A DNA stretch of 35,609 nt from a virus: IMG/VR virus record IMGVR_UViG_3300030060_005860, positions 1-35,609 of that record; one strand, written 5' to 3'. A program made the translations under genes and the position numbers. The notes beneath the pieces are model-generated. The model saw only the letters and a list, made by a program, of their open reading frames with translations. It was not told the origin of the DNA and did no database searches. Position 1 is the first letter of the stretch. Each line of letters begins with the position of its first letter. Positions 7,441 through 35,609 of this stretch are shown in pieces.

Positions 7441-7896
7441 ATGGCAATACCTCCTAGAAAAATATTTAGAATTAACCCAGCCGATGAAGATGAAAGAATT
7501 GCGGTTGGTATAGATTTGCCTCTTAGAGATAATAATGATTCTCCTTTTCCACAAACGAGAACTACTATTAGAGCTGCAGCTGCAAATATGAAAAATTTAA
7601 TTCTAACAAGAAAAGGAGAAAGACCATTTCACCCAACATTGGGTACTAGTATTTATGATTCTTTATTTGACCAAAACGTTGATGAAATGATAGGAAAAAT
7701 AGAAGAAGAAATAAATGAGGCAGTAGCTTATTGGTTACCTTATATACAAATAACAGACCTAGTTGTTGGAGTATCTGATAAACAATATGGCTTTGGTGAT
7801 AGATTTAATGGAGTAAGAATATCTATAAGTTTTACACTAGCAGGAAATAGGTTCGAAGAAGAAAGAATAGTCCTTGAAATAGGTGGAGTAGAATAA
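7441..7896 (+). CDS. 25: Baseplate wedge protein gp25 (IraD/gp25-like)
   Basis: This 151-residue protein is close to the usual size of T4 gp25. The diagnostic core lies at about residues 49-67: NMKNLILTRKGERPFHPTLG, followed by SIYDSLFDQ. The C-terminal beta-strands (GVRISISFTLAGNRFEEERI) complete the fold. In T4-type and simpler contractile tails gp25 joins the wedge to the sheath initiator and the hub. The stop codon overlaps the gp6 ATG (TAATG at 7894-7898), matching the common gp25-gp6 gene order. No clear Shine-Dalgarno sequence precedes its ATG, consistent with translational coupling to the gene upstream. Confidence 0.95.
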   Translation: MAIPPRKIFRINPADEDERIAVGIDLPLRDNNDSPFPQTRTTIRAAAANMKNLILTRKGERPFHPTLGTSIYDSLFDQNVDEMIGKIEEEINEAVAYWLPYIQITDLVVGVSDKQYGFGDRFNGVRISISFTLAGNRFEEERIVLEIGGVE

Positions 7897-9776
7897 TGGC
7901 ACTAGTTAAAAAAGACGTAAAATACTTAAATAAAGATTTTTCTCAGTTTAGAGAAAGATTAGTAAATTTTGCAAAAACATACTTTCCAGATACATACACT
8001 GACTTTAATGAAACTTCTCCTGGAATGATGTTCATTGAAATGACTGCTTATGTTGGAGATGTATTATCACTATATATCGATAATCAACTAAGAGAGTCAA
8101 TGTTATTACATGCAGAAGAACCACAAAATGTATATGATATTGCTCAAGCATTAGGATATAAACCAAATCCATCAGCTGCTGCAACCGTTACCTTAGATGT
8201 ATTTCATCTTGTACCAGCTGTTGGAAGTGGTGTAAATGTAGCTCCAGACTTTAGATACGCTTTAGAGATACAAGAAGGCATGACAATAAAGTCTACAGAA
8301 AATAAAGAAGTAGAATTTAGAACCTTAGAAGCAGTTGATTTTGCATTTTCTAGTTCTACAAGTCCTACAGAAGTTTCAATATATAAAGTAGATGATACAA
8401 CAGGAGCTCCACAATTTTATCTTTTACAAAAAAGCATTAAAGCGATATCTGGAAAATTAGAGTCAGAAACTTTTCAGTTTGGTGAACCTAAGAAATTTGA
8501 TAGAATTAGATTAGCACCAACAAATATTATAGATATAGTGGACTGTAAAGATATAGATGGAAATAAGTGGTATGAAGTGGATTATTTGGCACAAGATACA
8601 GTTTATACTGAAGTAAAACAAGGAGAGGCTGTTGACCCACTATTATCTCCATACGCAGATTCTGTACCATATATATTATCTCTAAGACGAGTACCTAGAC
8701 GTTTTACAAAAAGAATAACGTCTAATAATCAAATAGAATTGCATTTTGGAGCAGGAGTATCTGCAAATGCTGATGAAATTATTTTACCTAATCCTATAAA
8801 TGTAGGAATGCAATTACCGTATGGTAATACGTCTGGTCTAGATAATGCTTATGACCCTACTAACGTTCTTTTTACCCGAGGATATGGTAAAGCCCCTTCA
8901 GATACAACTTTAATTGTTAGATATTATACTGGTGGTGGAATAATTGCAAATGTTTCGTCAAGAACACTAACAGATATTACAAATGCACAATTTTTAGGTG
9001 GAACAGATGGACTAGATACTGATGTTGTAGATTTTGCAAGAAAGTCTTTGGCATGTACAAACCCAGAAGGAGCTACTGGAGGTAGAGGACAAGAAACAGT
9101 TGAAGAAATAAGACAAAACGCACTTGCGGCTTATTCAACACAAAATAGGGCGGTAACAAAAGAAGATTATATTGCAAGAGTTTATACTTTACCTGGTAAA
9201 TATGGAAGTATAGCTAAGGCTTATGTTGAAAGAGATGAACAAAATTTACAAGAGGATGGGTCTACTGAATTTAATCCTTTAGCAATAAACCTATATCTTC
9301 TTTCCTATAACGCAAATAAACAACTTATTGCACCAAATTTGGCAACAAAAACAAACTTAAAAACATATCTTACCAAGTTTAGAATGTTAACTGACGGTGT
9401 AAATTTAAGAAATGCACATGTAATTAACATTGGTATAAAGTTTGATATTGTAGCCAGACCTGATGCTATTTCTAAGGAAGTACTTATTAAAGCAATTGAT
9501 GAAGCAAAGACTTATTTTTCTATAGATAAGTGGCAAATAAACGAACCAATATCGATATCAGATCTAGCAGCAACTTTAGACCAAGTAGATGGAGTGCAAT
9601 CAATATTAAACCTAACAGTAGTAAATAAGTTTGATACAGACTCAGGATATTCTCCAAACTTCTATGATATACAAGAAGCTACTAAGAGTAATATAATTTA
9701 TCCTTCTATGGACCCTTCAATTTTTGAAGTTAGGTTTCCTGATACTGATATTGAAGCTAGAATAGTTGGAGCATAA
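7896..9776 (+). CDS. 6: Baseplate wedge protein gp6 (Baseplate_J family)
   Basis: The product has 626 residues, near the length of T4 gp6 (about 660). The N-terminal signature is clear: YLNKDFSQFRERLVNFAKTY, then FNETSPGMMFIEMTAYVGDV and YDIAQALGYKPNPSAAA, the gp6/Baseplate_J pattern. The central part carries ETVEEIRQNALAAYSTQNRAVTKEDY (about residues 406-431), the conserved J-domain segment, and the C-terminus has the alpha/beta wedge domain (ISISDLAATLDQVDGVQSIL). gp6 homologues assemble around the hub and tie adjacent wedges together. The gene starts inside the gp25 stop codon and has GGAG upstream. Confidence 0.96.
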   Translation: MALVKKDVKYLNKDFSQFRERLVNFAKTYFPDTYTDFNETSPGMMFIEMTAYVGDVLSLYIDNQLRESMLLHAEEPQNVYDIAQALGYKPNPSAAATVTLDVFHLVPAVGSGVNVAPDFRYALEIQEGMTIKSTENKEVEFRTLEAVDFAFSSSTSPTEVSIYKVDDTTGAPQFYLLQKSIKAISGKLESETFQFGEPKKFDRIRLAPTNIIDIVDCKDIDGNKWYEVDYLAQDTVYTEVKQGEAVDPLLSPYADSVPYILSLRRVPRRFTKRITSNNQIELHFGAGVSANADEIILPNPINVGMQLPYGNTSGLDNAYDPTNVLFTRGYGKAPSDTTLIVRYYTGGGIIANVSSRTLTDITNAQFLGGTDGLDTDVVDFARKSLACTNPEGATGGRGQETVEEIRQNALAAYSTQNRAVTKEDYIARVYTLPGKYGSIAKAYVERDEQNLQEDGSTEFNPLAINLYLLSYNANKQLIAPNLATKTNLKTYLTKFRMLTDGVNLRNAHVINIGIKFDIVARPDAISKEVLIKAIDEAKTYFSIDKWQINEPISISDLAATLDQVDGVQSILNLTVVNKFDTDSGYSPNFYDIQEATKSNIIYPSMDPSIFEVRFPDTDIEARIVGA

Positions 9777-12195: not shown

Positions 12196-15100
12196 ATGGC
12201 TTGGAACACGAAATATAAAGATGAAGACTTAAGGCTAATACCATCAAAGCCTATATTATCTGACTTTGGAAAGGCTCTAGATGCTGAAGATAGAGTAGAA
12301 CTTCATATTTACAGTCGAGATAACGATACACTTTTATTCTCAGATGCAGATATAACTAGCTATAAAGTAGCTGAAGGTGGTATTTTAGATAATGGTACTG
12401 TAAACCAAGATCCTGTTGTATTTTTAGATTTACATAACGATATAAGACAGTTTGTAAACTCAGGAACATTTAATGTAAAGTATTGTTTCTATAGAACTGT
12501 AGTTGGAAGTCCTGATTTATCTGTAAATGACTTGTTTTTAGATGAAATAAGTACTAGCAGAAAAGAAATAAGACTAAAAATTAGTGATGATGCATCTCAA
12601 GAAGAAAAAGAAATCTTCGAAGACTTTGCAGATAAACTATCAATAAAAGGAGATGTTGACCATTGGGTTGATATTCATGTTAACTTTGGAGATAACATAG
12701 TACCTTTAGCTGTAAATTGGTCTATAGATAAAATAACAACTCCAGAATTTCCATATTCTATTGTATTAAAATTATATGAGCCACTACCTGATAATATTGA
12801 TGTAAAAGCACCTTGTTGGATAGTACAAGAAATGATAACTCCTGTTAGGGAGACTGTTTTTGTTGAATCACCTGAAGTAGAAAAAGAAGTTAACTTTCTT
12901 GCACCACCAAACTTTGGAGCAGGAAGCGAAGATAATCTTGGAGGAGGTACAACTGGTTATGAAACATGGACTACTCTTACAAATGCAAAAGAAGAAGTTG
13001 TAAATAAAGTTCTTAATAGATATTTTTCAAGCAGCCTCGCAGATGTAAGACTTAGTATAGACTATAGAAGATTTTCGCACTTTATTAGATTTGGTTCTGC
13101 AAAATCTAGATTAGATAATTTCAAATATAAACTATCACAGGTAGAATTCTTTCAGGAAAAGATAGAAAATTTAACTACAAATTCTCCTGCTACAGCTAGT
13201 AATGCATCAATAACAGGTTCAACATACCACCAAAAAAATGTGCAAAATTTCAAAGATAAGCAGAATGAAATAATTGCAGGTTTTGATGGATATGAAAGAT
13301 TCTTATATGAAGAGTCAGCGTCTTATACTACTAGTTCACTTGGAGAATTTGTACCTGCAACTTGGCCAAAAGTTTCACCTAAGCCTTTGCCAAAAACTCC
13401 TTATGAACTTAGATCTGTAACTTCATCAGAGGCTATTGACTGGTTTACAGGAATGTACGCCACTGCATCTATATACGATAGAGAAAATATACATTCATTA
13501 GAAAACACTGCCATACCTTTACATATTCATGAAGATCCTACTTTAGGTAAAGATGAAAATATAAATAGTGAATATGTTAAGTTTGTTAATATGGTCGGCC
13601 AATTTTTTGACAACATTTATTTATATGTAACGGCTATACCTGAAACATGGGACAGACACAATGCTTTAGATGCAAAACTAATTGAAGGTCACTTTAGCGG
13701 TTCTGATATGTTATCAAAAGACTTAATCTACATGGGATTAAAGTCATTAGGATATAGTCAGTGTCTAAAAACAGATGAACAAGACTTATGGTCCTATGTA
13801 ATAGGTACAGATTCAGACGGAAACTTTGGAGATAAGCATAATTATTTTGCAACAAGTGATTGGTCATATTGGAATCAACCAGACGATCAGTTTGCATCGG
13901 CAAGTTATATTGCTGGTACTAGTGTATTTTCACAATCAGTAATACATGCTTCAGACTTTTATCAAACTTCACAATCTGTGCCTAGAGAAAATGTTAGACT
14001 AGAATTTGGTAAAAGATTATTAAACAATTTACCTCATCTGCTTAGAACTAAGGGAACTAAAGAAAACTTAAAGGCATATATGAATATATATGGTATACCT
14101 CAAAGTTTATTTAGAATAAAAGAATGGGGATCTCCAAAAGCTCCTAATTATTTTGACAATTCATACTATGAATATGAAACATTTAATTATAGGTTAAACT
14201 TTAATGGAACTTCATGTATTACTGCTTCTTGGGACGCAGTAACAGATCCTAGAATAATAGCAGATAATGGAGGAAGAACACAATATCCTGATACTATAGA
14301 ATTTAGATTCAAATTACCAGACATGTTAGAATATAATCTAAAGTGTGGTAAAAGACAGTTTAATGAAATAGCAAACAATGCTAATAAAAAGGATATGGTT
14401 GTTGTACAGATAAATTCTAGTTCATTTATTGCTGTAGAACATGTATCTGAGCATATACCTTCAGCAGATCAGTCAAAATATGATTTTCCTATCGGTGAAG
14501 ATAGTAAATATGGTAGAGTAAAGTTTGGATTAGGTGTAAATGATGGAACATATAAATATCCATCTTACTTTGTTTCTTGCTCTACAGATTGGGCACCTAT
14601 ATATGATGGAGATTTTTGGAATGTAATGGTTAGAAGAAATTCTCCATCTGCAACTGCTGTATCAAGCCAAATAACAGAAAACTTTACTTATGAGCTATTC
14701 TGTAAAAAGTCTACAGACTGGTCAAGGGCTACAATAACTCACGAATTTTCATCAAGCTTATCAACAAATGGAAGTACAACTGCAGGAAGACTTGCAAATA
14801 GTTCTTGGAATTCTGATGGTTTCCATGATGATACGTATGTTACAGGCTCATATTTTACTCCAGAAAACTCATCATCTAATTTTAATGGATATGCTGATGG
14901 TCTATTTGGATATAATTTTGATTCTTTCTTTATAGGAGGTGCAGTAGATAGTGTAGACTGGGGAATAAATAGAACTCCTGGAATAGACTATGAAAACTAT
15001 AGTGGTTCATTACAAGAATTCAGATTTTGGATGAAGCCATTAACTGAGTCTGCATTTAATCACCACGTACTTAATCCAATGGCTATTGATGGAAATACTT

Positions 15101-17583
15101 ATACTTCATCATATAATGACCTAATTGTAAGATATTCATTAGGAGCCGACCTTAAAACTTATGCATTATCAAATGGAACTGAGATTATATCTTCTCATCC
15201 AAACCAAGATATTCTTACACCATTTACAGACAATAGATCTACTTTTGCAACTGCAAGTGGATTTAATGGTGTAGTTGATTTTGAAGATGACCAAGAAAAA
15301 GTTGCAACAATCGTTCCTAATTATGTTGGATTATGTGTTGACCCTGACAAGGTTAGAGTACAAGAAAATTATTTAGATGGAAATCTTAGTGTAAACAAAA
15401 CAGCAGAAGCGTCTTTACCACAAGATAATGACCAAAACAGAGTCTCAATACAGATGACTCCAGTTGACCAAATAAATATTGATATTGAGCACCAACTAGG
15501 AGGAATTGAATTTAATGACCTTGTTGGAGATCCTAGAGCAAAATATAATGAATTTTATGCTGATGTTATATTTTATGACGAGCATTATTGGAAAAAACAT
15601 TTTGGTTCATTTAAGTACAATGAGTTTTTCAAGCTAATAAGATATTATGACGATACTGTTCTTTGCCAAATGAAAAAGAACGTTCCTGGTAGAAATAAGC
15701 CCGACTTTAATATTGCAGTAGAACCACATATATTAGAAAGACCTAGAATTCCTGTACATAGACCTACCCGTGTACCTCTTCATTTTGAAGGTTCTGCATC
15801 TGCAAGAGTTTTTGCACATGGTAATACTACCGAGTTAGGAAGATTCAAACATAATGGACCTGGAGATCCTTACTATAATAGTTGGGATGGAAACGGACCA
15901 GAAGAATCTAGATATGGTGACTTAGTTGCACCTAACCATAGGTTTGGTAATAGAGATGGTGCACATCAATTGCCTCAGCTACATCCTTCTTATGGAACAG
16001 GAGGTCAGAGAGAAAGAGAAAGAAATCCTGCAGGATTATTTAGAACAACTGTTGGAGAACTAGAAGCAACTATAAAACCTGCTTTTGAGCCTATAATTAA
16101 AGATGATATATTTATGTGTTGGGAAAGAGACCAACATGAAGGAGCTGCAAGATACGAATGGCATTTACCAGTAAATTGGGGAGATTCAAAAGGTGATTAT
16201 GTAGACTATTCTGTAACAGGAACAAATTCAAATTCAGCAACAAAGGCTAGATCTAAAATAAAATTAGCTGGAACTTTTCCTAATGCAGGTGTATCAGCTG
16301 TAGCCTATGATAATACGACTATAATACTAACTGCAACAGATGGAACCGTAGTAACGTTTACTTGTGATGACCCTCTAGGAGGTACAGGTTCAACAATCGC
16401 CGGATCTCAATTTGCATATAGTAATAATCCACTAACGCTTGCAACAAATATTAGAACTGCAATCAATGGACATTCTAAGTTTACTTGCGGAACTGTTCAT
16501 CAAGATGGTACAGTTGCACATTCATCTGGAGACCAAACTGCATTATATGTTGTACCTGTAACACAATCAACAGCAGGAGCAAATGGTAATACTACTATGT
16601 TTGGTACTTTCTTCCCACCTTATGGATATAATCCAAATGGTACTGGTGGAACAATTGCTTTATTCCAAGCTCATACTGCTAGTAGGTTCCATGTTATACC
16701 TGAAGAAACAGGTTTTTCTGGAGGTAGTGATGCAACAACAGATCCAAAAATAACTATAGTAACAGATAGTGTACGAACTTCAATAACTCAGTCTAACCCT
16801 TATTGGGAAAGAGATGTTTTAATGAATGTAAGTCACCCTATGGATCCTAGAGAACAGGAAAGATGGTATGATTTTAATAAACAAGAATATGTTTCAAGTA
16901 ATTTACTTCCTAATAAGCCAATGTTCGATAGGGCTGGAAACTATCCAGTAATAAATAATGGTTTAACTTCATACGCAGATAATAAAAGCTGTAGAGATAG
17001 AGGTAAAGAATGGTTCTTCCCTTTTATTAGTGACCAAAGAATTTCATTCTACAAACATACAGAACTACATAGATTTGCAACAGAACTTAGCCAATCTTTA
17101 GGAATAAAAGTACCTAGAATAGATTTTGGACAAGCAGATATTGGATATGGTAATTTAGATGGTCAAGCTATAGTTTCACATAGTGGTGCACCGATACGAA
17201 ACCTAAATGGAATATCTGTTTTAAGTAGATCTGCACAATATCAAGACTATAGAGCAAAAGGAATTCAAAATTTAATATATGACGGATGTATGATGTCAGC
17301 CTCAGATTTTAACGTAGATTCATCACAAACAATTGATGGTGGACCTGTTGTTGAAATAATAGACACTACACCGTTCACATTAACAGCTGCAGAGCCAACA
17401 TTAGGCGAAGGACCAGGTAGAGTATCTGGTGAAGGAATCGGTAAAGGTTTAGGAAGTTATAGTGGTAGACCAATAAACAGAGGTCCTGCGGCAGGTAGAG
17501 GACAAGCAATAACGGGTGGCAGATTTAATATTCAGCGATCACCGGCTGGAAGACCACAACCAAATGGAAATCAAATGTCGTGA
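12196..17583 (+). CDS. Very large baseplate/tail protein with tail-protein-I-like segment and LamG-like domain
   Basis: The product has 1795 residues. Residues about 600-636 (FGKRLLNNLPHLLRTKGTKE...YGIP) match the LLP.L...KGT...L...YGIP pattern of P2 tail protein I / T4 gp7-type wedge proteins. Residues about 660-945 look like a LamG/ConA-like sandwich: FNYRLNFNGTSCITASWD opens it, and YSGSLQEFRFWMKPLTESAF closes it. Residues about 1020-1190 include a phage-typical block (ADVIFYDEHYWKKHF...MKKNVPGRNKPDFNIAVEPH). Residues about 1350-1470 form a further beta-rich module (TTIILTATDGTVVTFTCDD, LATNIRTAINGHS, VTQSTAGANGNTT). The last 65 residues are Gly/Arg/Pro-rich and likely disordered. I infer the gp7/gpI partner of gp6 with grafted carbohydrate-binding domains. 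The ribosome site is GGGAAG. Confidence 0.8.
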   Translation: MAWNTKYKDEDLRLIPSKPILSDFGKALDAEDRVELHIYSRDNDTLLFSDADITSYKVAEGGILDNGTVNQDPVVFLDLHNDIRQFVNSGTFNVKYCFYRTVVGSPDLSVNDLFLDEISTSRKEIRLKISDDASQEEKEIFEDFADKLSIKGDVDHWVDIHVNFGDNIVPLAVNWSIDKITTPEFPYSIVLKLYEPLPDNIDVKAPCWIVQEMITPVRETVFVESPEVEKEVNFLAPPNFGAGSEDNLGGGTTGYETWTTLTNAKEEVVNKVLNRYFSSSLADVRLSIDYRRFSHFIRFGSAKSRLDNFKYKLSQVEFFQEKIENLTTNSPATASNASITGSTYHQKNVQNFKDKQNEIIAGFDGYERFLYEESASYTTSSLGEFVPATWPKVSPKPLPKTPYELRSVTSSEAIDWFTGMYATASIYDRENIHSLENTAIPLHIHEDPTLGKDENINSEYVKFVNMVGQFFDNIYLYVTAIPETWDRHNALDAKLIEGHFSGSDMLSKDLIYMGLKSLGYSQCLKTDEQDLWSYVIGTDSDGNFGDKHNYFATSDWSYWNQPDDQFASASYIAGTSVFSQSVIHASDFYQTSQSVPRENVRLEFGKRLLNNLPHLLRTKGTKENLKAYMNIYGIPQSLFRIKEWGSPKAPNYFDNSYYEYETFNYRLNFNGTSCITASWDAVTDPRIIADNGGRTQYPDTIEFRFKLPDMLEYNLKCGKRQFNEIANNANKKDMVVVQINSSSFIAVEHVSEHIPSADQSKYDFPIGEDSKYGRVKFGLGVNDGTYKYPSYFVSCSTDWAPIYDGDFWNVMVRRNSPSATAVSSQITENFTYELFCKKSTDWSRATITHEFSSSLSTNGSTTAGRLANSSWNSDGFHDDTYVTGSYFTPENSSSNFNGYADGLFGYNFDSFFIGGAVDSVDWGINRTPGIDYENYSGSLQEFRFWMKPLTESAFNHHVLNPMAIDGNTYTSSYNDLIVRYSLGADLKTYALSNGTEIISSHPNQDILTPFTDNRSTFATASGFNGVVDFEDDQEKVATIVPNYVGLCVDPDKVRVQENYLDGNLSVNKTAEASLPQDNDQNRVSIQMTPVDQINIDIEHQLGGIEFNDLVGDPRAKYNEFYADVIFYDEHYWKKHFGSFKYNEFFKLIRYYDDTVLCQMKKNVPGRNKPDFNIAVEPHILERPRIPVHRPTRVPLHFEGSASARVFAHGNTTELGRFKHNGPGDPYYNSWDGNGPEESRYGDLVAPNHRFGNRDGAHQLPQLHPSYGTGGQRERERNPAGLFRTTVGELEATIKPAFEPIIKDDIFMCWERDQHEGAARYEWHLPVNWGDSKGDYVDYSVTGTNSNSATKARSKIKLAGTFPNAGVSAVAYDNTTIILTATDGTVVTFTCDDPLGGTGSTIAGSQFAYSNNPLTLATNIRTAINGHSKFTCGTVHQDGTVAHSSGDQTALYVVPVTQSTAGANGNTTMFGTFFPPYGYNPNGTGGTIALFQAHTASRFHVIPEETGFSGGSDATTDPKITIVTDSVRTSITQSNPYWERDVLMNVSHPMDPREQERWYDFNKQEYVSSNLLPNKPMFDRAGNYPVINNGLTSYADNKSCRDRGKEWFFPFISDQRISFYKHTELHRFATELSQSLGIKVPRIDFGQADIGYGNLDGQAIVSHSGAPIRNLNGISVLSRSAQYQDYRAKGIQNLIYDGCMMSASDFNVDSSQTIDGGPVVEIIDTTPFTLTAAEPTLGEGPGRVSGEGIGKGLGSYSGRPINRGPAAGRGQAITGGRFNIQRSPAGRPQPNGNQMS

Positions 17584-24466: not shown

Positions 24467-25387
24467 ATGGGTAATTTAAGAATCATACAAATATTAGAAC
24501 AAGTACTTGGTCGTTCAAAAACAAATGAACAGACTGGAGAAGTTGGCTTTCATTGTCCTTTTTGCAAGCATCATAAAAGAAAGTTTAATCTAAATTTAGA
24601 AACAGAAAAATGGCATTGTTGGGTATGTAGTGTTAAAGGTAGAACTATATCTTCACTATTCAAAAAATTAAATGTTTCTAGAGAAATAATAAGTAGATTA
24701 TCTAAACTTACTGGTAAAGCAATAAAGGTAGATGATAATAAAAAGTATGACGACTTATCTTTGCCTAGTGAATATATTCCACTCTATTTAGCAAATAAGA
24801 AAAGCCCTGAATATAAGAATGCTATAAATTATCTTCTTGGTAGAGATTTAAGTGGAACTGATATTTTAAGATATGGAATAGGTTATTGTGAAAGTGGAAG
24901 ATATAGTGGTATGATAATTATACCTAGTTATGATTGTGATGGAAATCTAAACTTTTTTACTGGTAGAAGCTACTATAAAGATGCAACATATAAGCATAAT
25001 AATCCTAGAGTTAGTAAAGATATTATTGGCTTTGATTTATATATTAACTGGGATGAGCCAATAACAATTGTTGAAGGAGTATTTGATGCAATAGCAGTTA
25101 GGCATAATGCAATACCGTTATTTGGTAAACTAATGCTAGATAGTCTTAAAACAAAAATAATAAAAAATAAAGTAAATAGAATAAATATTGCACTAGATTC
25201 AGATGCATTAGAACATTCTATAAAAATGGCAGAATATTTTATGAGTTTAGATAAGGAAGTACATATTGTAGACTTAGGAGAATCAGATCCCAGTGAAATG
25301 GGACATGAAAACTTTCAAGATTTACTAGATGAATCTAAACCATTAACATTTGGAAAATTGATGGAGTATAAATTTATATGCAAATAG
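24467..25387 (+). CDS. DNA primase with zinc-finger and TOPRIM domains (gp61-like)
   Basis: The product has 306 residues. The N-terminal zinc-binding domain has Cys30-x2-Cys33 and Cys51-x2-Cys54 (GFHCPFCKHHKRKFNLNLE; WHCWVCSVKG). A primase core follows, with YGIGYCESGRYSGMIIIPSYD and FTGRSYYKDATYKH. The TOPRIM motifs are Glu203 in ITIVEGVFDAIAV and Asp244-x-Asp246 in NIALDSDALEHS. This is the DnaG/gp61 arrangement, and the length is similar to T4 gp61 (342). It makes RNA primers for the lagging strand, working with a helicase not in this window. No Shine-Dalgarno sequence precedes ATG 24467. The 3' end overlaps the next gene by ten bases, so primase and the Mre11-Rad50 fusion are translationally coupled. 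Confidence 0.92.
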   Translation: MGNLRIIQILEQVLGRSKTNEQTGEVGFHCPFCKHHKRKFNLNLETEKWHCWVCSVKGRTISSLFKKLNVSREIISRLSKLTGKAIKVDDNKKYDDLSLPSEYIPLYLANKKSPEYKNAINYLLGRDLSGTDILRYGIGYCESGRYSGMIIIPSYDCDGNLNFFTGRSYYKDATYKHNNPRVSKDIIGFDLYINWDEPITIVEGVFDAIAVRHNAIPLFGKLMLDSLKTKIIKNKVNRINIALDSDALEHSIKMAEYFMSLDKEVHIVDLGESDPSEMGHENFQDLLDESKPLTFGKLMEYKFICK

Positions 25388-28300
25388 ATATTGGATTTGA
25401 TAAAGTAGATAAGATTCTACATGTAGCTGATATACATATTAGAAACTTCAAAAGGCACAAGGAATACAGGCAAGTATTTAGAAAACTATATAAAGAAGCA
25501 AAGCTTTTACCAAAGAATAGTTTAATATATGTAGCTGGTGATATTGTTCACACAAAAACAGATATTAGTCCTGAGCTAGTAGAGTTAACTTCTGAGTTTT
25601 TTAGAAAGTTGGCTGATATTAGACCAACAATAGTAATTACTGGTAATCATGACGCCAACCTAAATAATTCTAGTAGATTAGATGCGCTATCACCAATAAT
25701 AGATAATCTTGCACATTCAAACCTTCACTACTTAAAAAATAGTGGAATATACAGAGTTTCTAATATAGATTTTATAGTCATGTCTGTATTTGATGACCCT
25801 AAAGACTTCCCAGATGCTACACAAGCATCGAATATTAAAATTGGTTTACATCATGGACCGGTACATAATTCTGTAACTGATATTGGCTATGTTGTAAACA
25901 ATGAAAGCCTAAAACAGTCTGTATTTAAGGGATGTGACCTAGTTTTATTAGGTGATATACACAAAAGACAATATTTAGATAAAAATGAAACTATAGCCTA
26001 TGCTGGTTCTCTAATACAACAAAACTTTGGTGAAACTTTTGAAAACCATGGTTATATGTTATGGGATATGAATACACTAAAAGGTGAATTTATTGATATA
26101 CATAACGATTATGGATATTATACTGTTGACATGATAGATGGTAAATTGCCAAACATAGATAATATACCTAAATATCCAAGATTAAGAATAAGAACAACAA
26201 ATACTACACAGGCAGAACTGAAAAAAGGACTGGTTGAAATAAGAAAAAAGGCTAGAGTTAGAGATGTTATTCATATAAAAACAGATAAGCTTGCTAATAT
26301 ATCTAATAACTCAAAAAATGCAATTGAAATAACAAAGGATATTAGAGATTCTAATTATCAAAATGAACTAATTGTAGATTATTTAGAAAGAAATTATGAC
26401 CTAGATCCTGATTTATTAAATAGAATAAGAAAAATAAATAGAGACCTAAATTCATTATTACCTGATGTAGAAATAAGTAGAAATCTTAGTTGGAAGCCAA
26501 AGACTTTTGAGTTTTCAAACATGTTTAGTTATGGCGAAAATAATAAAATAAACTTTGAAAATATGAATGGAACTGTCGGAGTATTTGCACCAAACCATTC
26601 AGGTAAGTCTGCAATATTAGATGCAGTTGCATATTGTTTATTTGACAAATGCTCAAGAACAAAGTCAGCATCAGAAGTTATGAATACTTCTAAGAATAAT
26701 TTTAGTTGTACTTTTAATTTTGAAATAGATGGTATAGATTATTTTATAGAAAGAAGAGCTAAAAGGTCTCATACTGGCCATGTAAGAGTAGACGTAGATT
26801 TTTGGATGATTGACGAAGCAGGAGAAAAAGTATCACTAAATGGAGAACAAAGAGTATATACAAATAGAAATATTCGTGGTTACTTAGGATATTATGAAGA
26901 TTTTGTTCTAACTGCTCTATCACTACAAAACAATAATACAGGATTTATAGATAAAAGCCAAGTGGAAAAGAAAGATTTATTGGCACAGTTTCTAGATATT
27001 ACAGTATTTGAAGAACTATATAGAGTTGCAAATGAAGAAATAAAAGAAGTTGAAGTTTTACTTAAGCACTTCAAAGACTTAGATTTTACTCAACAACTAA
27101 TAGATTCTGAAGAGCAATTACAAATACATGAAGCAGACTATAAAAACTATGAGAAAATAAAAGATTCTATAAATAAAAAACGTGAAAAGCTAAACGATAA
27201 AATTATAGAACAAACTTCTAATTTATTAAAACTAGACAGTATTACCGACATTAAAGAATTAAAGTTAAAGAAGAAAGATATATTATTAGAAATATCTTCA
27301 GCAGAAGAAAGATTGGCTAAATATGATAGATATTTTTCTCAAAACACTCCTAGACTTAGAGAGCTTACAAGATTAGAAAAGAAATATAATGCAGAAGATA
27401 TTGATGATAGACTTAAAAAGCTAAAATTAACGAGAACAGAACAGACTACTGTAAAGTCCGAACTAGATAAACTTAAAATTATTATTAAAAATAAGTTAGA
27501 TAAGTTAAAAGCAATAGGTCAATTTGACCCTAATTGTGATTTTTGTAAGAATACACCTTTTGTTCAAAGTGCTTTTAAGATAGAAAATGAATTAAGAGAT
27601 GACAAAATCTCAGTAAATAGACTTTTAGATAGACAATCAAAGTTAGATTCATTAGTTGGAATATTAGAACCAGTTGAAACAGAGTCAGTAGAATTAAAAA
27701 ATATTGTTGATGAACATAATAAATTATCAAAGTATCAATCTGAGATAAAGTTAAAAAGAGTTCAAAGAAGATCTGAGTTACGAGAAAAAAATAGAAATTT
27801 AACTTCTGTAGAAAAAGAAATAGATAAATACTATAAGAATGAAGAAAATCTTCGACATAATTCAAAGGTACAAAAGAAAATAGACTCTCTAAAAGAACAA
27901 CTATCAGAAGTATCTACTGAACAAGTAGAAAATTCTAATAATTTACAAGAAGCATTTAGTAAGTTATCTATGGTAAAACAGTCTATAGAATCTACACATT
28001 CATCAATAGAACAGGCGCATGACCTAGAAGAAAAGTATAAGGCTTATGAATATTATCTAAACTCTATACAAAGAAATGGTGTACCATACGAGCTAATATC
28101 TAATATTTTACCATATATACAAGAAGAGGTAAATACAATTTTATCTCAGATAGTTGATTTTAGTATTGAATTTAGTGTAGATGGTAAAAATATAAATACT
28201 TTAATATCTTATGGAGACAATAAAAAATGGGCACTAGAATTAACATCTGGTATGGAAAAGTTCATAAGTTCTCTAGCCATTAGAGTCGGTTTAATAAATG

Positions 28301-28518
28301 TTTCTAATCTGCCAAGACCAAACTTCTTAGCAATTGATGAAGGTTTTGGTAATTTAGATGCTAATAATCTAAACTCTATATTTATGTTGTTTGATTATCT
28401 AAAAACAGAATTCGATTATGTAATAGTTATCAGCCATATTGACCTGATGAGAGATATTACAGATAATTTATTAGAAATAAGCAAGTCTTCAGGATTAAGT
28501 AACGTAGTCTATAACTAA
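25378..28518 (+). CDS. 46/47: Single-chain Mre11-Rad50 (gp47-gp46 / SbcD-SbcC) fusion
   Basis: The product has 1046 residues. Residues 1-about 350 are a calcineurin-like nuclease: Asp18-x-His20 (HVADIHIR), Gly54-Asp55 (VAGDIVH), Asn90-His91-Asp92 (TGNHD), HHGPVHN, LLGDIHKR and an AGSLIQQNFGE capping region. Residues about 375-1046 are a Rad50-type ATPase: Walker A near 404-411 (APNHSGKS, with Ala replacing the usual first Gly), a long coiled coil broken by a zinc hook Cys720-Asp-Phe-Cys723, signature TSGMEKF at 956-962 and Walker B FLAIDEGFGNLD with Asp987-Glu988. In T4 these are separate genes, 47 and 46. No stop, frameshift or start signal is visible at the junction. The complex resects DNA ends for recombination-dependent replication and can degrade host DNA; a fused chain would fix 1:1 stoichiometry (inference). 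Confidence 0.93.
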   Translation: MQIDIGFDKVDKILHVADIHIRNFKRHKEYRQVFRKLYKEAKLLPKNSLIYVAGDIVHTKTDISPELVELTSEFFRKLADIRPTIVITGNHDANLNNSSRLDALSPIIDNLAHSNLHYLKNSGIYRVSNIDFIVMSVFDDPKDFPDATQASNIKIGLHHGPVHNSVTDIGYVVNNESLKQSVFKGCDLVLLGDIHKRQYLDKNETIAYAGSLIQQNFGETFENHGYMLWDMNTLKGEFIDIHNDYGYYTVDMIDGKLPNIDNIPKYPRLRIRTTNTTQAELKKGLVEIRKKARVRDVIHIKTDKLANISNNSKNAIEITKDIRDSNYQNELIVDYLERNYDLDPDLLNRIRKINRDLNSLLPDVEISRNLSWKPKTFEFSNMFSYGENNKINFENMNGTVGVFAPNHSGKSAILDAVAYCLFDKCSRTKSASEVMNTSKNNFSCTFNFEIDGIDYFIERRAKRSHTGHVRVDVDFWMIDEAGEKVSLNGEQRVYTNRNIRGYLGYYEDFVLTALSLQNNNTGFIDKSQVEKKDLLAQFLDITVFEELYRVANEEIKEVEVLLKHFKDLDFTQQLIDSEEQLQIHEADYKNYEKIKDSINKKREKLNDKIIEQTSNLLKLDSITDIKELKLKKKDILLEISSAEERLAKYDRYFSQNTPRLRELTRLEKKYNAEDIDDRLKKLKLTRTEQTTVKSELDKLKIIIKNKLDKLKAIGQFDPNCDFCKNTPFVQSAFKIENELRDDKISVNRLLDRQSKLDSLVGILEPVETESVELKNIVDEHNKLSKYQSEIKLKRVQRRSELREKNRNLTSVEKEIDKYYKNEENLRHNSKVQKKIDSLKEQLSEVSTEQVENSNNLQEAFSKLSMVKQSIESTHSSIEQAHDLEEKYKAYEYYLNSIQRNGVPYELISNILPYIQEEVNTILSQIVDFSIEFSVDGKNINTLISYGDNKKWALELTSGMEKFISSLAIRVGLINVSNLPRPNFLAIDEGFGNLDANNLNSIFMLFDYLKTEFDYVIVISHIDLMRDITDNLLEISKSSGLSNVVYN

Positions 28519-28582: not shown

Positions 28583-31500
28583 GTGGCGACAATACAAAGA
28601 ACATTCAAGGACCCTACATTACAGAACCCCTTGAAATACCTGGGTTACGATTCTATACCTGTTGAGATAGAAGATTCAGGAATTTCAGAGGACTATTTTA
28701 ATGTACAAGGCATAGGACAAGAACTTCATGCAGGTAAGAATTTATTCTATATAAAGCCTGACCCCGAAACATTAGTAGAAAATGCTGAAATCGGAGTAGA
28801 AGTTCTAGATGCTGACGGTGACCTAGTACCAGTACGTCTTTTAGATAATAGAAGAAGTGATGGTTCTATAGGACTAATCATTGAGGTAGATGAGACCAGA
28901 CCTAAAGGATATGGTCAAGTAACTATTGTTTCAGTTGCAAAAGGAAGAGTACTCAATGCTAGAATTGCTCCAGTTAGAAATCCTGGTGTATTTAATATAA
29001 GATGGGCAAAAAGAGTATATATAAATAGAGACGCAAATAATACGTCTGAAATAACATATATTACTCCACCAAAAATTGAAGTATCTGAATTAAAACTTCC
29101 TTACTATGAGCATTACTTTAATACAAAGCTTACTTCTTCTCTATCTTCAGCCCTAACTTCTGCAAACCCAGTAATACAAAATGAAATAACATGTTCTATA
29201 TATCAACTTTCTTCATCATATAATACAAATGCAAAAATATCTTATGATAAGAGAGGAGAACAAATATACTTAGAGCTAACAGGATCTGATTTTGGTGGAT
29301 TTGTTAGTGATATGGAAAATGGTACTATATTTTTTGATGCAAAAGATATAGTTGGAATAGACCCTGAGGCTACGGCGCTAAATACTTTAGTTGAAGATGG
29401 AGATGGATTCGATGATATAAATTCAGAAGGTTCTTATTTCACTAGTATACTCCAAGTACTTTCACCATCTAGAGTATTAGCATCTAGCCCTCATACAACT
29501 TTTCAAGGATCAGGTCAATCATTGCATGAAGTAATGCACCAAAACTTTGAACATAGTGATTTTACACTAACATGGGCAATGCCACCTTATTCTCACAGTA
29601 GATACCCACACCCAGATCCACCAGAATCAGAATCAATGTTCAAAACCTCATATGCTGGGGTTGTTATTGATGACTTAGACCCTTATTCAGGTGAAGTACA
29701 TAGAATAAAAACATACATAAGAGCAGAATCAAGGCCAGATGATTATCACCTTTGCTCTGATTTACCTGTAGAGGCACAAGAAATGCTAGTTGTTTCAATG
29801 TCTCCTCACTATAATAAAAATAGATTTAAGAATATACCATGTGGAAGATTTGATAGATTAAATTCTTCTGTAGATACTTCAGACGTAAGATACTTTGGAA
29901 ATTATTGGTACACTACTGCAGTTGGACTAGAAGCTCCAACACTTTCAATAGTATCTGAATCACTCGCTACGCCAACTGTAGAACAACCTCCAAATACTGT
30001 TCTAGACTTTATACCCATGCGACCGTCTCTTAGGGTTGGTTCACTTGGAGAAGTTTCACCATTAGATGATAATGTTGGAAGGAACCCAAGTGTACAACCT
30101 CTAAAGGTGGTAGAATTGCGAAGTAATGTTTCTGCATCATTTAAGCAGGACAAAGTTTACGTTTTAGAAGTAAGTGCCTTTGTTAAAAGTAGAGAAATAA
30201 CAACCTTAGAAGATAATCACCTTGGTGTTGCACATGGTATTGGAACATTCAAGATAGGAGCTCCACAAAATTCATCTGGAGGCCAAGCACCTGGATTCCA
30301 AGTTCAACCTCCACTTTATGGTGGTATTGTATCTGGTCAAGGGGTAAATTCACAAAATGTATTTACTATACCCGATGGACCTGTGTTAACTGCACCAAGG
30401 CTAGATATTTTTGGTTTCGGAGATGCATTTCAAGATGATACAAACCGTATAGGTTTAGGAAAACTTATTGGCGAAATAAATGATGTCAACCAACCACAAG
30501 GTAGAGTTGTTGATATTAAAAAGGTAGAAGGATATTCTGGTGTAGACCATGTACTTGAAGTAAACTTTAGATTCCCGTTCAAAGCAGACGCAAATGCTAT
30601 TGGAGAATTTAGATTTGAAATAGAACGAGGATTGTGGTATTTTCAAGAAATATCTGTTAAACCTTATGAAAGAGCTGGTGTATCTACTCACAATTATAAC
30701 TATTTAGTACCACTACCTAGAGGTTTATCTCATCCAGATAAAAGAGATGTTTTTGACTTCATGTTTGAATTCTATAATATAGAAGGACACATGTGTGCAG
30801 AAAAAGTCTATATAGATAATGTTTGTATGGACAATGAATGGACTATTGCACCAACAAGTATCGTTGTAGAAAATATAGATAATGTCGAAAATAATATAGA
30901 AATAAACGGTCCTCTAGTTGTCAATAATCTAACTAATATAACAAGTTCAACTTCAAATATAGATATTACAAATAACTTTGGAGATATATTAGTATATAAT
31001 ACAGGTTCAGGAGAAATTGGTCATGTACAATTAGGTTGTGCTTTAGACTTTATGGATAAAGATAATTGTTGTTGCCATCTACATGCAGATACAAACATTT
31101 ATATCTTTATAGATAATACGAGTATGAAGGTAACTCAGCAAAATCCTGACGGTCTTTCTGCAGCTCAATATACTCCAGGACTTATTACTAGATGGGTAAT
31201 TACCAAGTTTGAAAAAGATATGAGGGAGAGATACCCTTATTGGAAAGGAAATATATTTGTAGGACAAGGATCTGGAGGACCAGGTCAAGGTACATTACCA
31301 GCTGAAAGATGGTTATCTATGATGTCATGGCCGGCAGTTGGTAATCAGCGAATAGATAATGATGGTATAGGACAAGGTATTACTGGTAGTATGGCATCCG
31401 TTACTTGGGGAGAATTTCCTTATGGAACAACTGCAAATGATGAATCTATCGGAGCATACGTAAATTCAGATGAGTTTGAAGCGTACGGATATCGAACAAA

Positions 31501-34500
31501 TGAGTATTATCTTGAAAATTCACCAATCATAAAAGATGGTGTACCAGATACAAATGTAATTGTATTTACAATGGTTGATGAAACAGATGCAACCACAAAC
31601 TCGGTTACTGGTGGACCAGGTAATGGTTATCACTATAGAAATAACGACTCAAGTTATTCATCACAGGCTACAGACCTAACAGGTACATCTGCAGATTTTA
31701 CAAATCATTTAACGAGTCACTATAAAGCAGATTACGGACTATTTATCGGTAAGGCGCATCCATTATATACTTGCTTTGCAGGTTATGTATATGCTCTTCC
31801 TAGTTCTTTATCAACAACACACCCAGTAAGACAACACTTTGCATTACATATTTATGCGGCAATAGAAACTGGTATTGTAGATTCAGATGATTTTATATCT
31901 GAAACACCTACAGGTGGTAATCTTAGCGCAATAACGGGTAGTAATCCTTATGCTGGCGTAAACTCTGTAGGAACTAATTCACCATGGTATCAAGGTGGAA
32001 TATACGGGTTAAAGAGTCAATCCATAAAAGAAAAACATGACTTTGTTGGAGGTATAAGTGGATGGTATTCTGAAAGTTTAGTTTATCCTGTATCACTAGT
32101 AGAAGCAAACAAGTCGGGTTCATGGCTAAGAGGTCAAGCAAGCTTCAGTGCAGATTTATTTGAGTTTATCAATGGTGATTCTATAGGAGTTAAAGTTGAT
32201 GGTACAACAATCTGTGTAAATGAAGCCAATGAATTATTTGCAAGACATACTGGTTCTTATACAGGTTCATTTACAGGAGATATAGTTACCACTAATATAA
32301 ACATAAATAATGGTGGTGTAAACACTTATATAATTGGTGATACTTTCGTCATAAATAGTACAACTACTAATATTTTTGGTGGTGATACTTTCATAAATAA
32401 TCTAAGCATAAATAAGTTCGATATAACAAATATTACTAATATAGATAATAGTACAACTTCTGTTAGAAATGAATATAATAACTTTGTTGTATATAATAAC
32501 ACGACGAATGAAGTAGCAGAACTTAAATTAGGTTGTGCACTTGATTTTATGGATAGTGAAAACTGTTGTTGTCACCTTCATGCAGATACCAACATCTATA
32601 TTTTTATTGATAACACTAGTTTAATTTTTAGTGGTTCTGCACCAGATAGTCCTGCAATATTGACAAGATATGTTATTCCTAAATTTGAAAAAGATATGCG
32701 AGAAAGATACTCGTATTGGAAAGGAAATATTTATGTAGGAGCTGGAGATACTGGCGGTGTATTTAATGTTAGAGAAAGATGGTTATCTTGGATGTCATGG
32801 CCAGCTGTTGGTAATCAAAACGAACTATCTGCAGGATCTGGTATCACAGGAAGCTTAGTTTCAGTTAGATGGGATGCATCCGGATCCGGTACAGATTTTG
32901 CAGCAGGAACTTATGCTAATTCTGATGATTATCATGCGTATGGATATAGTTCATCTGCATATTATCTAGAAAATTCACCTATTAGTTCATCTGGAGAAAG
33001 TGATAAAAATGTTATTGTATTTACTCTTGTTGATGAAACACATCAGAGTTATCATAATAATTCTCAACAAACACAAGGACCACAAGGTGTAGCCGCAGAT
33101 TGGGCAAACGAACCTCAAGACGACTACAAGCGTGATTATGGATTATTTATAGGAGAAGCTCATCCTAAATACTCTTGTTTTTCTGGATATGTATATGCTT
33201 TACCATCCGGCCAAAACATAGCACATCCTGTAAGGCAACAATTTGCTTTACATATTTATGGTGCGATAGAAACATCTGCAGTTGATTCAGCAGACTTTAT
33301 AGGATTTACTGCAACTGGAGGTAATCTTAGTGCAATAACTGGTTCGAATCCTTATGCTCATGCATCTAACTCAGTTGGTACTTTGTCTCCACACTATCAA
33401 GGTGGAATATATGGACTAAAGAGTCAGTCTATAAAGGAAAAGCACGACTTTGCTCAAGGTGCACAAACATGGCATGCAACAAATGGAAATGTACATCCTC
33501 ACCAAGAATTAAACTCAACATCATCATGGGAATCAGGTCAACAGGCGTTTTCAAGTGACCTATTTGACTTTATAGATGGTGATTCTATAGGAGTTAGAGT
33601 AGATGCAAAAACTATATGTGTAAATGAAGCCAATGAATTATTTGCAGAAACAGGATCTATGGTTGTTTCTCAGTCTATTTCATCTATAACTGCTTCTTTT
33701 GCACTAACAGCATCTCACGCAGTATCAGCTTCTCACGAAATAACATTTGAACTTTCATCTTCTAATGCACAAACTGCTTCTCTTGCATTAAGTGGAACAG
33801 GTTCTTTTACAGGTAGTTTTACAGGAATAAGTAATACTACAGGCTCATTTACCGGTTCAGGACACATAACATCAGCATCCTTTGCCGTAACTGCTTCACA
33901 TGTAATAGGAGGTGGTAGTGGTGATGGAGATAATTTAGGTAATCATACTGCAACGCAAGATATAAACCTAGATGGAAATGATATTATTGGAATAGATAAT
34001 TTAATAGTATCTGGAAATATAACTGCTTCTGGTACTGTAAGTTCTTCTGGAGGTTTTATTGGAGATTTAACCGGTACGGCAAGTTATGGAGCAGATAATG
34101 ACTGGTACAAACAAGGAGTTTCAAATGCTCTTACAGACCCACAAATAACCGATCAGATATATCATAATGGTCTAGTCGGTATAGGAGATTTTTCTAGTGA
34201 TTCAGTAACTCATCAATTACAAGTTGAAGGAAAGACTAGAATAGGTAATTCAACCGACGATAGGCATGAATTTACAGGTTCAATACACTTATCACACTCT
34301 GCAATGTCTATATTTACTGGTAGTGGTAAGCTTGCGTTTGGTTTACAAAATACAAATGCACAATTTACTCAGGCAAATACTAGACTGGTACAATTCTATA
34401 GTGGAAGTGATAGAGCAGTATTCTTAAATGTTACCAACTGGGAAACAGCTTCAGCATTTACAGCCGCAGGTGGAAGTCCTGGTGACGCATCACCTTCTAC

Positions 34501-35609
34501 AAACGGCCCAAGAACAGGAATTTCTGTTAATGGAGTAAATTCAAGGGCAAACTATGGATTAGGCGGAACAAGAGGAACAGCAGGAGGAAATATATCCTTC
34601 CATCCAGATACCTATGAAGGTAATACAAATGGTAATGACTTAGGTGATGGAGGTGACGTAGATTCTTTAGGTAGAAGATTATTACAAGAAGTTTTACATA
34701 TTTCTACCGGAGGTAATCCTCAACCTAGTATAAATATACATGCAAGAGGTGATAGAGGCCAGCAGATACGATTCTTTGTTGGAAATGACGACGCAAGAAA
34801 TACTGGTGGACCAACTGTAGAAACTCAAAGAATGACCATAATCAATGAAGGTCTTATTGGTATTGGTACTCATGACCCTCAGCGTAGACTTCATATTTCT
34901 GAAAGTGGAAATACATATAATGGTCAAAAAGTACCTCTTAGAGTAAATAACTTTACAGAAGGACCTGCACAAAATGTTCTTGTATGGGACGAAAATACAG
35001 GTGATGTCTATAAAAAGCCACTATCAGAGTTACCGTCTGGAGATGCTGGTATAAATACATTTATTATTGGTGATACTTTTGTTATAGGACCACATAACAC
35101 ATTTATTAACAATGTTTCTATATTCTCAGATTCTACATTTATTACTAATTTAACTGCAAGCAATGGTCAATTTACAGGTTCATTCACAGGTTCATTTACT
35201 GGAGATGGTAGTGGACTAACAGGAGTTACTGGTGAATGGGACGGAACACTTAATGGTGATGCACAAATAACTGGTTCACTAGTTTTAACTTCAAACTTTA
35301 CAGCATCAAGTAACGTAAGTGTTAGTGGAGATATTGAGGTAAGAAATATAACGGCATCAGGACAAGTTAGTGCAAGTGGTGGTTTTGTTGGAGATTTAAC
35401 TGGAACGGCAAGTTATGGTGCAGACAATGACTGGTACAAAAGAGGAGCATCTGATGCACTTACAGATCCTACGATAACTGATGAAATATATCACAATGGA
35501 AACGTAGGTATAGGAGACTTTTCTTCAGATACCGTTACTCATAAACTACAAGTTGAAGGAAAAACAAGAATAGGTAATTCCACAGACGATAGGCATGAAT
35601 TTACTGGTT
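28583..35609 (+). CDS. Giant virion adhesin/fibre protein with duplicated vWA-like domain (3' end outside window)
   Basis: The frame is open from GTG 28583 to the window end, giving at least 2342 residues. An in-frame TAG at 28574-28576 bounds it, GGAG at 28568-28571 is the ribosome site, and no ATG competes. Residues 1-210 are a beta-rich phage module (VEVLDADGDLVPVRLLDN; VFNIRWAKRVYINRD). Residues 210-770 are further sandwiches. Two vWA-like repeats follow (about 797-1220 and 1299-1688), each with LGCALDFMD, NCCCHLHADTNIYIFIDNTS, a helix FEKDMRER, and a strand VIVFT.VDET. Residues from about 1695 are shaft repeats (ITASFALTASHAVSASHE, GSFTGSFTG), with a second duplicated module (VGIGDFSSD...LQVEGKTRIGNSTDD). 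I infer a long fibre or large tail adhesin. The end and any head domain or chaperone lie beyond the window. Confidence 0.88.
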   Translation, partial: MATIQRTFKDPTLQNPLKYLGYDSIPVEIEDSGISEDYFNVQGIGQELHAGKNLFYIKPDPETLVENAEIGVEVLDADGDLVPVRLLDNRRSDGSIGLIIEVDETRPKGYGQVTIVSVAKGRVLNARIAPVRNPGVFNIRWAKRVYINRDANNTSEITYITPPKIEVSELKLPYYEHYFNTKLTSSLSSALTSANPVIQNEITCSIYQLSSSYNTNAKISYDKRGEQIYLELTGSDFGGFVSDMENGTIFFDAKDIVGIDPEATALNTLVEDGDGFDDINSEGSYFTSILQVLSPSRVLASSPHTTFQGSGQSLHEVMHQNFEHSDFTLTWAMPPYSHSRYPHPDPPESESMFKTSYAGVVIDDLDPYSGEVHRIKTYIRAESRPDDYHLCSDLPVEAQEMLVVSMSPHYNKNRFKNIPCGRFDRLNSSVDTSDVRYFGNYWYTTAVGLEAPTLSIVSESLATPTVEQPPNTVLDFIPMRPSLRVGSLGEVSPLDDNVGRNPSVQPLKVVELRSNVSASFKQDKVYVLEVSAFVKSREITTLEDNHLGVAHGIGTFKIGAPQNSSGGQAPGFQVQPPLYGGIVSGQGVNSQNVFTIPDGPVLTAPRLDIFGFGDAFQDDTNRIGLGKLIGEINDVNQPQGRVVDIKKVEGYSGVDHVLEVNFRFPFKADANAIGEFRFEIERGLWYFQEISVKPYERAGVSTHNYNYLVPLPRGLSHPDKRDVFDFMFEFYNIEGHMCAEKVYIDNVCMDNEWTIAPTSIVVENIDNVENNIEINGPLVVNNLTNITSSTSNIDITNNFGDILVYNTGSGEIGHVQLGCALDFMDKDNCCCHLHADTNIYIFIDNTSMKVTQQNPDGLSAAQYTPGLITRWVITKFEKDMRERYPYWKGNIFVGQGSGGPGQGTLPAERWLSMMSWPAVGNQRIDNDGIGQGITGSMASVTWGEFPYGTTANDESIGAYVNSDEFEAYGYRTNEYYLENSPIIKDGVPDTNVIVFTMVDETDATTNSVTGGPGNGYHYRNNDSSYSSQATDLTGTSADFTNHLTSHYKADYGLFIGKAHPLYTCFAGYVYALPSSLSTTHPVRQHFALHIYAAIETGIVDSDDFISETPTGGNLSAITGSNPYAGVNSVGTNSPWYQGGIYGLKSQSIKEKHDFVGGISGWYSESLVYPVSLVEANKSGSWLRGQASFSADLFEFINGDSIGVKVDGTTICVNEANELFARHTGSYTGSFTGDIVTTNININNGGVNTYIIGDTFVINSTTTNIFGGDTFINNLSINKFDITNITNIDNSTTSVRNEYNNFVVYNNTTNEVAELKLGCALDFMDSENCCCHLHADTNIYIFIDNTSLIFSGSAPDSPAILTRYVIPKFEKDMRERYSYWKGNIYVGAGDTGGVFNVRERWLSWMSWPAVGNQNELSAGSGITGSLVSVRWDASGSGTDFAAGTYANSDDYHAYGYSSSAYYLENSPISSSGESDKNVIVFTLVDETHQSYHNNSQQTQGPQGVAADWANEPQDDYKRDYGLFIGEAHPKYSCFSGYVYALPSGQNIAHPVRQQFALHIYGAIETSAVDSADFIGFTATGGNLSAITGSNPYAHASNSVGTLSPHYQGGIYGLKSQSIKEKHDFAQGAQTWHATNGNVHPHQELNSTSSWESGQQAFSSDLFDFIDGDSIGVRVDAKTICVNEANELFAETGSMVVSQSISSITASFALTASHAVSASHEITFELSSSNAQTASLALSGTGSFTGSFTGISNTTGSFTGSGHITSASFAVTASHVIGGGSGDGDNLGNHTATQDINLDGNDIIGIDNLIVSGNITASGTVSSSGGFIGDLTGTASYGADNDWYKQGVSNALTDPQITDQIYHNGLVGIGDFSSDSVTHQLQVEGKTRIGNSTDDRHEFTGSIHLSHSAMSIFTGSGKLAFGLQNTNAQFTQANTRLVQFYSGSDRAVFLNVTNWETASAFTAAGGSPGDASPSTNGPRTGISVNGVNSRANYGLGGTRGTAGGNISFHPDTYEGNTNGNDLGDGGDVDSLGRRLLQEVLHISTGGNPQPSINIHARGDRGQQIRFFVGNDDARNTGGPTVETQRMTIINEGLIGIGTHDPQRRLHISESGNTYNGQKVPLRVNNFTEGPAQNVLVWDENTGDVYKKPLSELPSGDAGINTFIIGDTFVIGPHNTFINNVSIFSDSTFITNLTASNGQFTGSFTGSFTGDGSGLTGVTGEWDGTLNGDAQITGSLVLTSNFTASSNVSVSGDIEVRNITASGQVSASGGFVGDLTGTASYGADNDWYKRGASDALTDPTITDEIYHNGNVGIGDFSSDTVTHKLQVEGKTRIGNSTDDRHEFTG
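30971..32242 (+). repeat. vWA-like domain, repeat 1 (coding)
   Basis: This copy starts at NNFGDILVYN and ends at NEANELFA. Landmarks are the Cys triplet at residues 829-831, the strand with Asp844 (IFIDNTSM), and Asp999-Glu1000 in VIVFTMVDET. Between them are SWPAVGN, GGNLSAITGSNPYA, YQGGIYGLKSQSIKEKHDF and FINGDSIGV, all of which recur in repeat 2. The protein is clearly similar while synonymous sites differ widely, so the duplication is old. Confidence 0.88.
32477..33646 (+). repeat. vWA-like domain, repeat 2 (coding)
   Basis: This second copy of the preceding domain is slightly shorter, opens with NNFVVYNN and closes with the same NEANELFA. Corresponding residues are the Cys triplet in NCCCHLHAD, Asp1343 (IFIDNTSL) and Asp1484-Glu1485 (VFTLVDET). 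The two copies are separated by an Asn/Thr/Ile-rich linker containing IIGDTFVI. Confidence 0.88.
34049..34280 (+). repeat. Fibre module repeat, copy 1 (coding)
   Basis: The copy encodes GGFIGDLTGTASYGADNDWY, a Q/A/L/T segment, IYHNG.VGIGDFSSD, then LQVEGKTRIGNSTDDRHEFT. Copy 2 begins 1329 bases downstream, in frame. The two are more alike in DNA than the vWA-like pair, suggesting a later duplication or recombinational homogenisation. Confidence 0.85.
35378..35609 (+). repeat. Fibre module repeat, copy 2 (coding, cut by window end)
   Basis: It encodes the same module as the copy at 34049, with substitutions such as I to V in GGFVGDL and Q to R after DNDWYK. It is cut by the window end at HEFTG. 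More copies may follow outside the window. Confidence 0.82.

Follow-up and report, generated by a model that had tools for sequence, protein, structure and literature searches.

A duplicated, uncharacterised domain in a giant phage tail-fibre-like protein

The window analysed here, a virus record consisting of one contig of 35,609 bases, encodes a giant tail-fibre-like protein that carries the same large, uncharacterised domain twice. The reading that we favour, with a probability of about 0.6, is that this domain belongs to a phage-restricted family, is probably of the alpha/beta type, lies at hairpins of the fibre shaft and is likely to act as a host-contact module. An unnamed, large domain that is duplicated and reordered in giant fibres presents a target for the pursuit of a new host-recognition or surface-modifying module. 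An earlier note, made from the sequence, had read the two copies, as a fold hypothesis, as tandem von Willebrand factor A (vWA)-like domains that may have a metal site of the MIDAS kind, used to bind a host surface protein.

The giant fibre gene and its two domain copies

The fibre ORF (28583-35608, plus strand) starts with GTG and encodes 2342 residues with no stop before the contig end; because it runs off the contig, the protein is longer than the part seen and its C-terminus lies beyond the record, and the full-length relatives reach 3002 aa (in the contig L001) and 2939 aa (L002). Its first 796 or so residues (28583-30970) form a conserved fibre base, with tblastn matches in Microcystis phage Mel-JY01 (E 5e-10) and in LR756508.1 (E 2e-12). 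The proposal that this is a giant phage tail-fibre-like protein is borne out by its structural gene neighbourhood and by its homology to annotated fibres. Upstream lie genes for a baseplate wedge protein (7896-9776), a DNA primase (24467-25387) and a fused SbcD-SbcC-like protein (25378-28518); the gene order in Mel-JY01 is alike, with a virion protein, a primase and an AAA protein followed by the frame homologous to the fibre N-terminus, which runs off the end of that record. At the other end of the protein, the C-terminal part of the L001 fibre shares 43.5% identity with the “putative tail fiber-like protein” of Flavobacterium phage immuto in an alignment of 180 residues; further matches are to many cyanophage proteins and to two PHROG families with no assigned function. 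Thus, Mel-JY01 shares the fibre N-terminus and the gene order, and immuto shares the fibre C-terminus, but both records are without the duplicated domain, with the caveat that the Mel-JY01 frame is incomplete, since its record stops within it.

The tandem copies described earlier, aa 797-1220 (copy 1; 30971-32242) and aa 1299-1688 (copy 2; 32477-33646), are confirmed by blastp and by a MAFFT alignment, and their shared motifs stand at the residues given for them: IFIDNTS begins at 841 (31103-31123; it includes Asp844, Thr846 and Ser847) and at 1340, FEKDMRER at 876 and 1368, KGNIFVG at 888 with its counterpart KGNIYVG at 1380, VIVFT at 992 and 1477, and VDET, whose Asp is Asp999 in copy 1, at 998 and 1483. 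The alignment of the copies spans their full length, with 58% identity and E about 1e-149 in blastp (65% identity in the MAFFT alignment); at the DNA level, they share eight blocks of 72-91% identity, spaced 1404-1497 bases apart, far beyond chance. Measured against the L001 orthologues, dN/dS is about 0.14 for copy 1 and about 0.12 for copy 2, compared with 0.12 for the fibre N-terminus: both copies are under purifying selection. Whole-length similarity together with low dN/dS shows that the duplication is real and that both copies are maintained as protein.

Where does the domain itself begin and end? Each copy opens with a fibre hairpin of 20 or so residues (NILVYNxxSGE...), so the limits of the domain are narrower than those of the copy, probably about aa 815-1205 in copy 1 and 1315-1675 in copy 2. 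The hairpin that precedes each copy reads NILVYNTGSGE... (NIMTWNSGSGDVSYTQL in the related contig L004), and a similar one, NVLVWDENTGDVYKKPL, occurs near aa 2130 of the same fibre with no domain after it; from this likeness, we infer that each copy forms a globular insertion following a hairpin of the shaft. A search for a fibre with the same flanks and the domain absent found none, and the insertion reading accordingly draws on the hairpin resemblance. The surroundings are shaft-like: the linker between the copies (32243-32476) is made of GSFTG and NTYIIGDTFVI stretches, the latter present again at 35043-35086, and both copies are flanked by stretches of these two types. Directly before the first predicted strand of each copy stand three consecutive cysteines (CCC; 31067-31075 and 32564-32572), which are invariant in all ten known copies.

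Distribution and descent of the family

Scanning IMG/VR with several queries and patterns brought the family to ten copies on six viral contigs: the two in the window and eight in five other IMG/VR contigs, of which L001, L002 and L004 have two each and L003 and L011 one each. Each giant fibre thus has at least one or two copies, sited differently in different fibres. DNA patterns for YIFIDxTS and WPAxGNQ, run over IMG/VR, returned only the contigs already known and chance matches, and the family is absent from the 50,697 phage records, plasmids and species genomes searched. A tblastn match to Bacteroides phages (E 1, in the phage collection with E allowed up to 10) was judged to be chance, and among 395 sampled genomes from the phylum of Taibaiella the best E value per genome, 0.009, is the level that chance gives over that many. 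Judged by sequence searches, the family is phage-restricted and, as far as the searched databases go, new.

In the tree, each copy of the window groups with its counterpart in L001 (support 100/100 for the copy 2 pair and 99/98 for the copy 1 pair), so the duplication predates the split of the two phages. The copy 1 pair is joined by the second copy of L002 (support 95/96; L002 6615-9230 compared with window 30971-33646); the order of the copies in L002 is therefore different, which suggests that the modules have been reordered or exchanged. Between the window and L001, the domains are 84-86% identical and the fibre N-terminus 84.5-90%; because the two have diverged about equally, the domains give no sign of fast, receptor-driven change.

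Predicted fold and candidate roles

What kind of domain is this? Searches of Pfam, NCBIfam, PHROG and PDB with single sequences, with the ten members and with a family profile found no family match, and the view that the domain, or at least its first part, is probably alpha/beta (Rossmann-like) comes from low-confidence models. AlphaFold2 gave a mean pLDDT of 32 for the full copy 1 with nine alignment rows, and a pLDDT of 43.6 with a pTM of 0.55 for a trimmed L002 copy with ten rows, in which blocks 11-60 reach 62-70. Both models contain a strand at 42-47, a long helix at 64-87, a strand at 95-99 and another near 195-201 (copy numbering; a copy has about 350-390 residues); the first strand ends just before Asp48, which is Asp844, and the last stands just before Asp203, which is Asp999. 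Structure prediction, proposed earlier as a check, thus makes a strand-Asp-helix-strand start plausible, at the low confidence of these models (pLDDT 32 and 43.6). The copies differ in length at residues 58-64 (after DxTS), 104-109 (after the second strand) and 207-234 (after the VDE strand); if the fold, as yet unproven, were doubly wound, all three sites would lie on one face, which would fit an exposed, ligand-facing edge.

In the reading that we favour, the giant fibre would be displayed on the virion, the domains would protrude from its shaft, and they would touch the host surface during adsorption and there bind or modify a glycan or protein. Position is what makes this host-contact role likely.

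Among the alternatives, it is possible, if tentative, that the domain is an enzyme, for example an esterase, a deacetylase or a glycosidase, that modifies a polymer of the host surface during adsorption. Enzymes are common in phage tail fibres and spikes, and the family has many further invariant polar residues (EKH at 354-356, RQ at 287-288 and EN at 182-183, copy numbering), but no enzyme family was matched. A profile comparison with the SGNH hydrolases (PF13472), with the GDS block included, gave a probability of 0.54, and 78 of 100 shuffles scored as high; comparisons with VWA_2, NYN and HAD profiles, set against column-shuffle nulls, likewise gave none above the null with a sensible alignment. 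A response-regulator profile was also tried and rejected: only 8 of 150 shuffles scored as high, but the alignment consisted of 23 columns before the core.

It is doubtful that the domain is a structural collar or bend, which would stiffen or multimerise the fibre and have no direct role in binding. The copies do sit inside the shaft and not at its tip, the invariant CCC could link chains, and conservation is at least roughly on a par with that of the fibre base; on the other side, fibres differ in having one copy or two and in where these sit, and a non-repetitive domain of 350 residues is large for a pure spacer.

The vWA reading, in which the copies are very divergent vWA domains and the DxTS that closes strand 1 joins Thr934 and Asp999 in a putative MIDAS-like metal site that would attach the fibre to a host surface protein, we regard as unlikely. 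A vWA domain has a beta strand ending in a metal-site D-x-S/T-x-S, a first helix, and a later strand ending in Asp. The points of resemblance are these: the predicted first strand leads to an Asp and then a helix, and an invariant Thr, a later strand and an invariant Asp follow. All ten copies keep Asp844, Thr846, Ser847, Thr934 and Asp999 unchanged; of these, Thr934 (residue 138 of the copy, within GxGITGS; 31382-31384, by arithmetic from the copy start) and Asp999 (copy residue 203, in VIVFTMVDET, 31556-31585, where Glu1000 is invariant too) come in the order of MIDAS motifs 2 and 3, and both models share the strand-helix-strand start. Such invariance counts for little in closely related copies whose alignment has roughly 140 unchanging columns overall. 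Moreover, the first motif is not DxSxS: in all ten copies, D-x-T-S is followed by Met or Leu. The evidence for the candidate MIDAS-like site of DNTS and the later Asp, suggested earlier, is weak, as sets of residues no less suggestive can be picked for other folds. A DxSxS string of copy 1, DSSYS, lies in a variable loop; it was considered as a MIDAS motif and rejected, being absent from copy 2.

Profile searches, which the earlier note had proposed against vWA families, speak against the fold. None of the ten members has a VWA match, and neither PF00092 nor PF13519 reached its cut-off; PF00092 found nothing at E <= 10 in the window and the five related records, while it gave matches in 14 of 14 control genomes. 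For a profile-profile comparison, vWA alignments were built from species genomes, and hhalign gave the family a probability of 0.02 against 27 vWA sequences and of 0.15 against 42, a value equalled or exceeded in 30 of 150 column shuffles; as a positive control, two separate vWA sets match each other at 98.9%. With a Neff of 1.75, the family alignment is shallow; the power of this comparison is accordingly low and its negative outcome is not an exclusion. For what the alignments are worth, hhalign pairs strand 1 of the family with the first vWA strand, and a long alignment, when forced, sets GxGITGS against the GGTA loop of vWA and the VDE strand against the TDG strand.

In a Foldseek search with the low-confidence model, no vWA domain is among the 50 PDB matches listed, of which the best has E 0.69 and the top ones are short alpha/beta fragments of LysR effector domains. 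A0A516LFR9_3 leads the BFVD matches (E 5.6e-3, 68 columns, 22% identity), among which proteins labelled VWFA come only at ranks 25 and 28, with E about 3.6. In sum, the domain differs from PF00092 (integrin I domains, BatA/BatB, YfbK) in its D-x-T-S in place of DxSxS, in a length about twice that of a vWA domain, in having no detectable profile similarity, and in a low-confidence model that does not match the vWA structure; with no family match, a profile-profile score inside the shuffle null and no vWA among the listed PDB fold matches, the fold claimed earlier found no support.

Is there a precedent for vWA domains in fibres? VWA domains have been reported in the tail fibres of extracellular contractile injection systems of the eBAP4 group (PMC12923769), and these, like the protein described here, are long fibre proteins of the phage-tail type with inserted globular modules; their VWA domains are recognised by Pfam, unlike the duplicated domain of this fibre. 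The other vWA proteins of phages or archaeal viruses that the literature search brought up are not fibres: they include CobT-like cobaltochelatase subunits (PMC8651126) and a core protein of N4-like phages (PMC10783043). VWA domains in proteins of the tail-fibre type thus have a precedent in the contractile injection systems; for phage tail fibres, no published vWA domain was found in a literature search that covered few subscription journals. The most specific form of the vWA reading, a highly derived vWA-like pair with a non-canonical D-x-T-S metal site that grips a host protein receptor, and hence integrin-like adhesion by a bacteriophage, is improbable; if true, such a metal-dependent, vWA-like adhesin, at present hypothetical, would be the phage counterpart of integrin and pilus-tip domains.

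Other modules and genes in the window

Beyond copy 2, the distal shaft (33647-35608) contains a second duplicated fibre module: 34014-34279 and 35343-35608, each of 266 bases, are 80% identical. The module is cut short by the end of the contig, and similar modules occur in the related fibres.

The gene at 25378-28518 (plus strand) encodes a protein of 1046 aa that matches an SbcD-like profile at residues 10-350 and an SbcC-like profile at residues 286-1045; from these profile matches, a single protein seems to combine the two SbcCD nuclease subunits. At the corresponding place, Mel-JY01 encodes an AAA protein of about this length. Between the baseplate-type and fibre genes, 12196-17583 (plus strand) encodes a protein of 1795 aa with no PHROG match.
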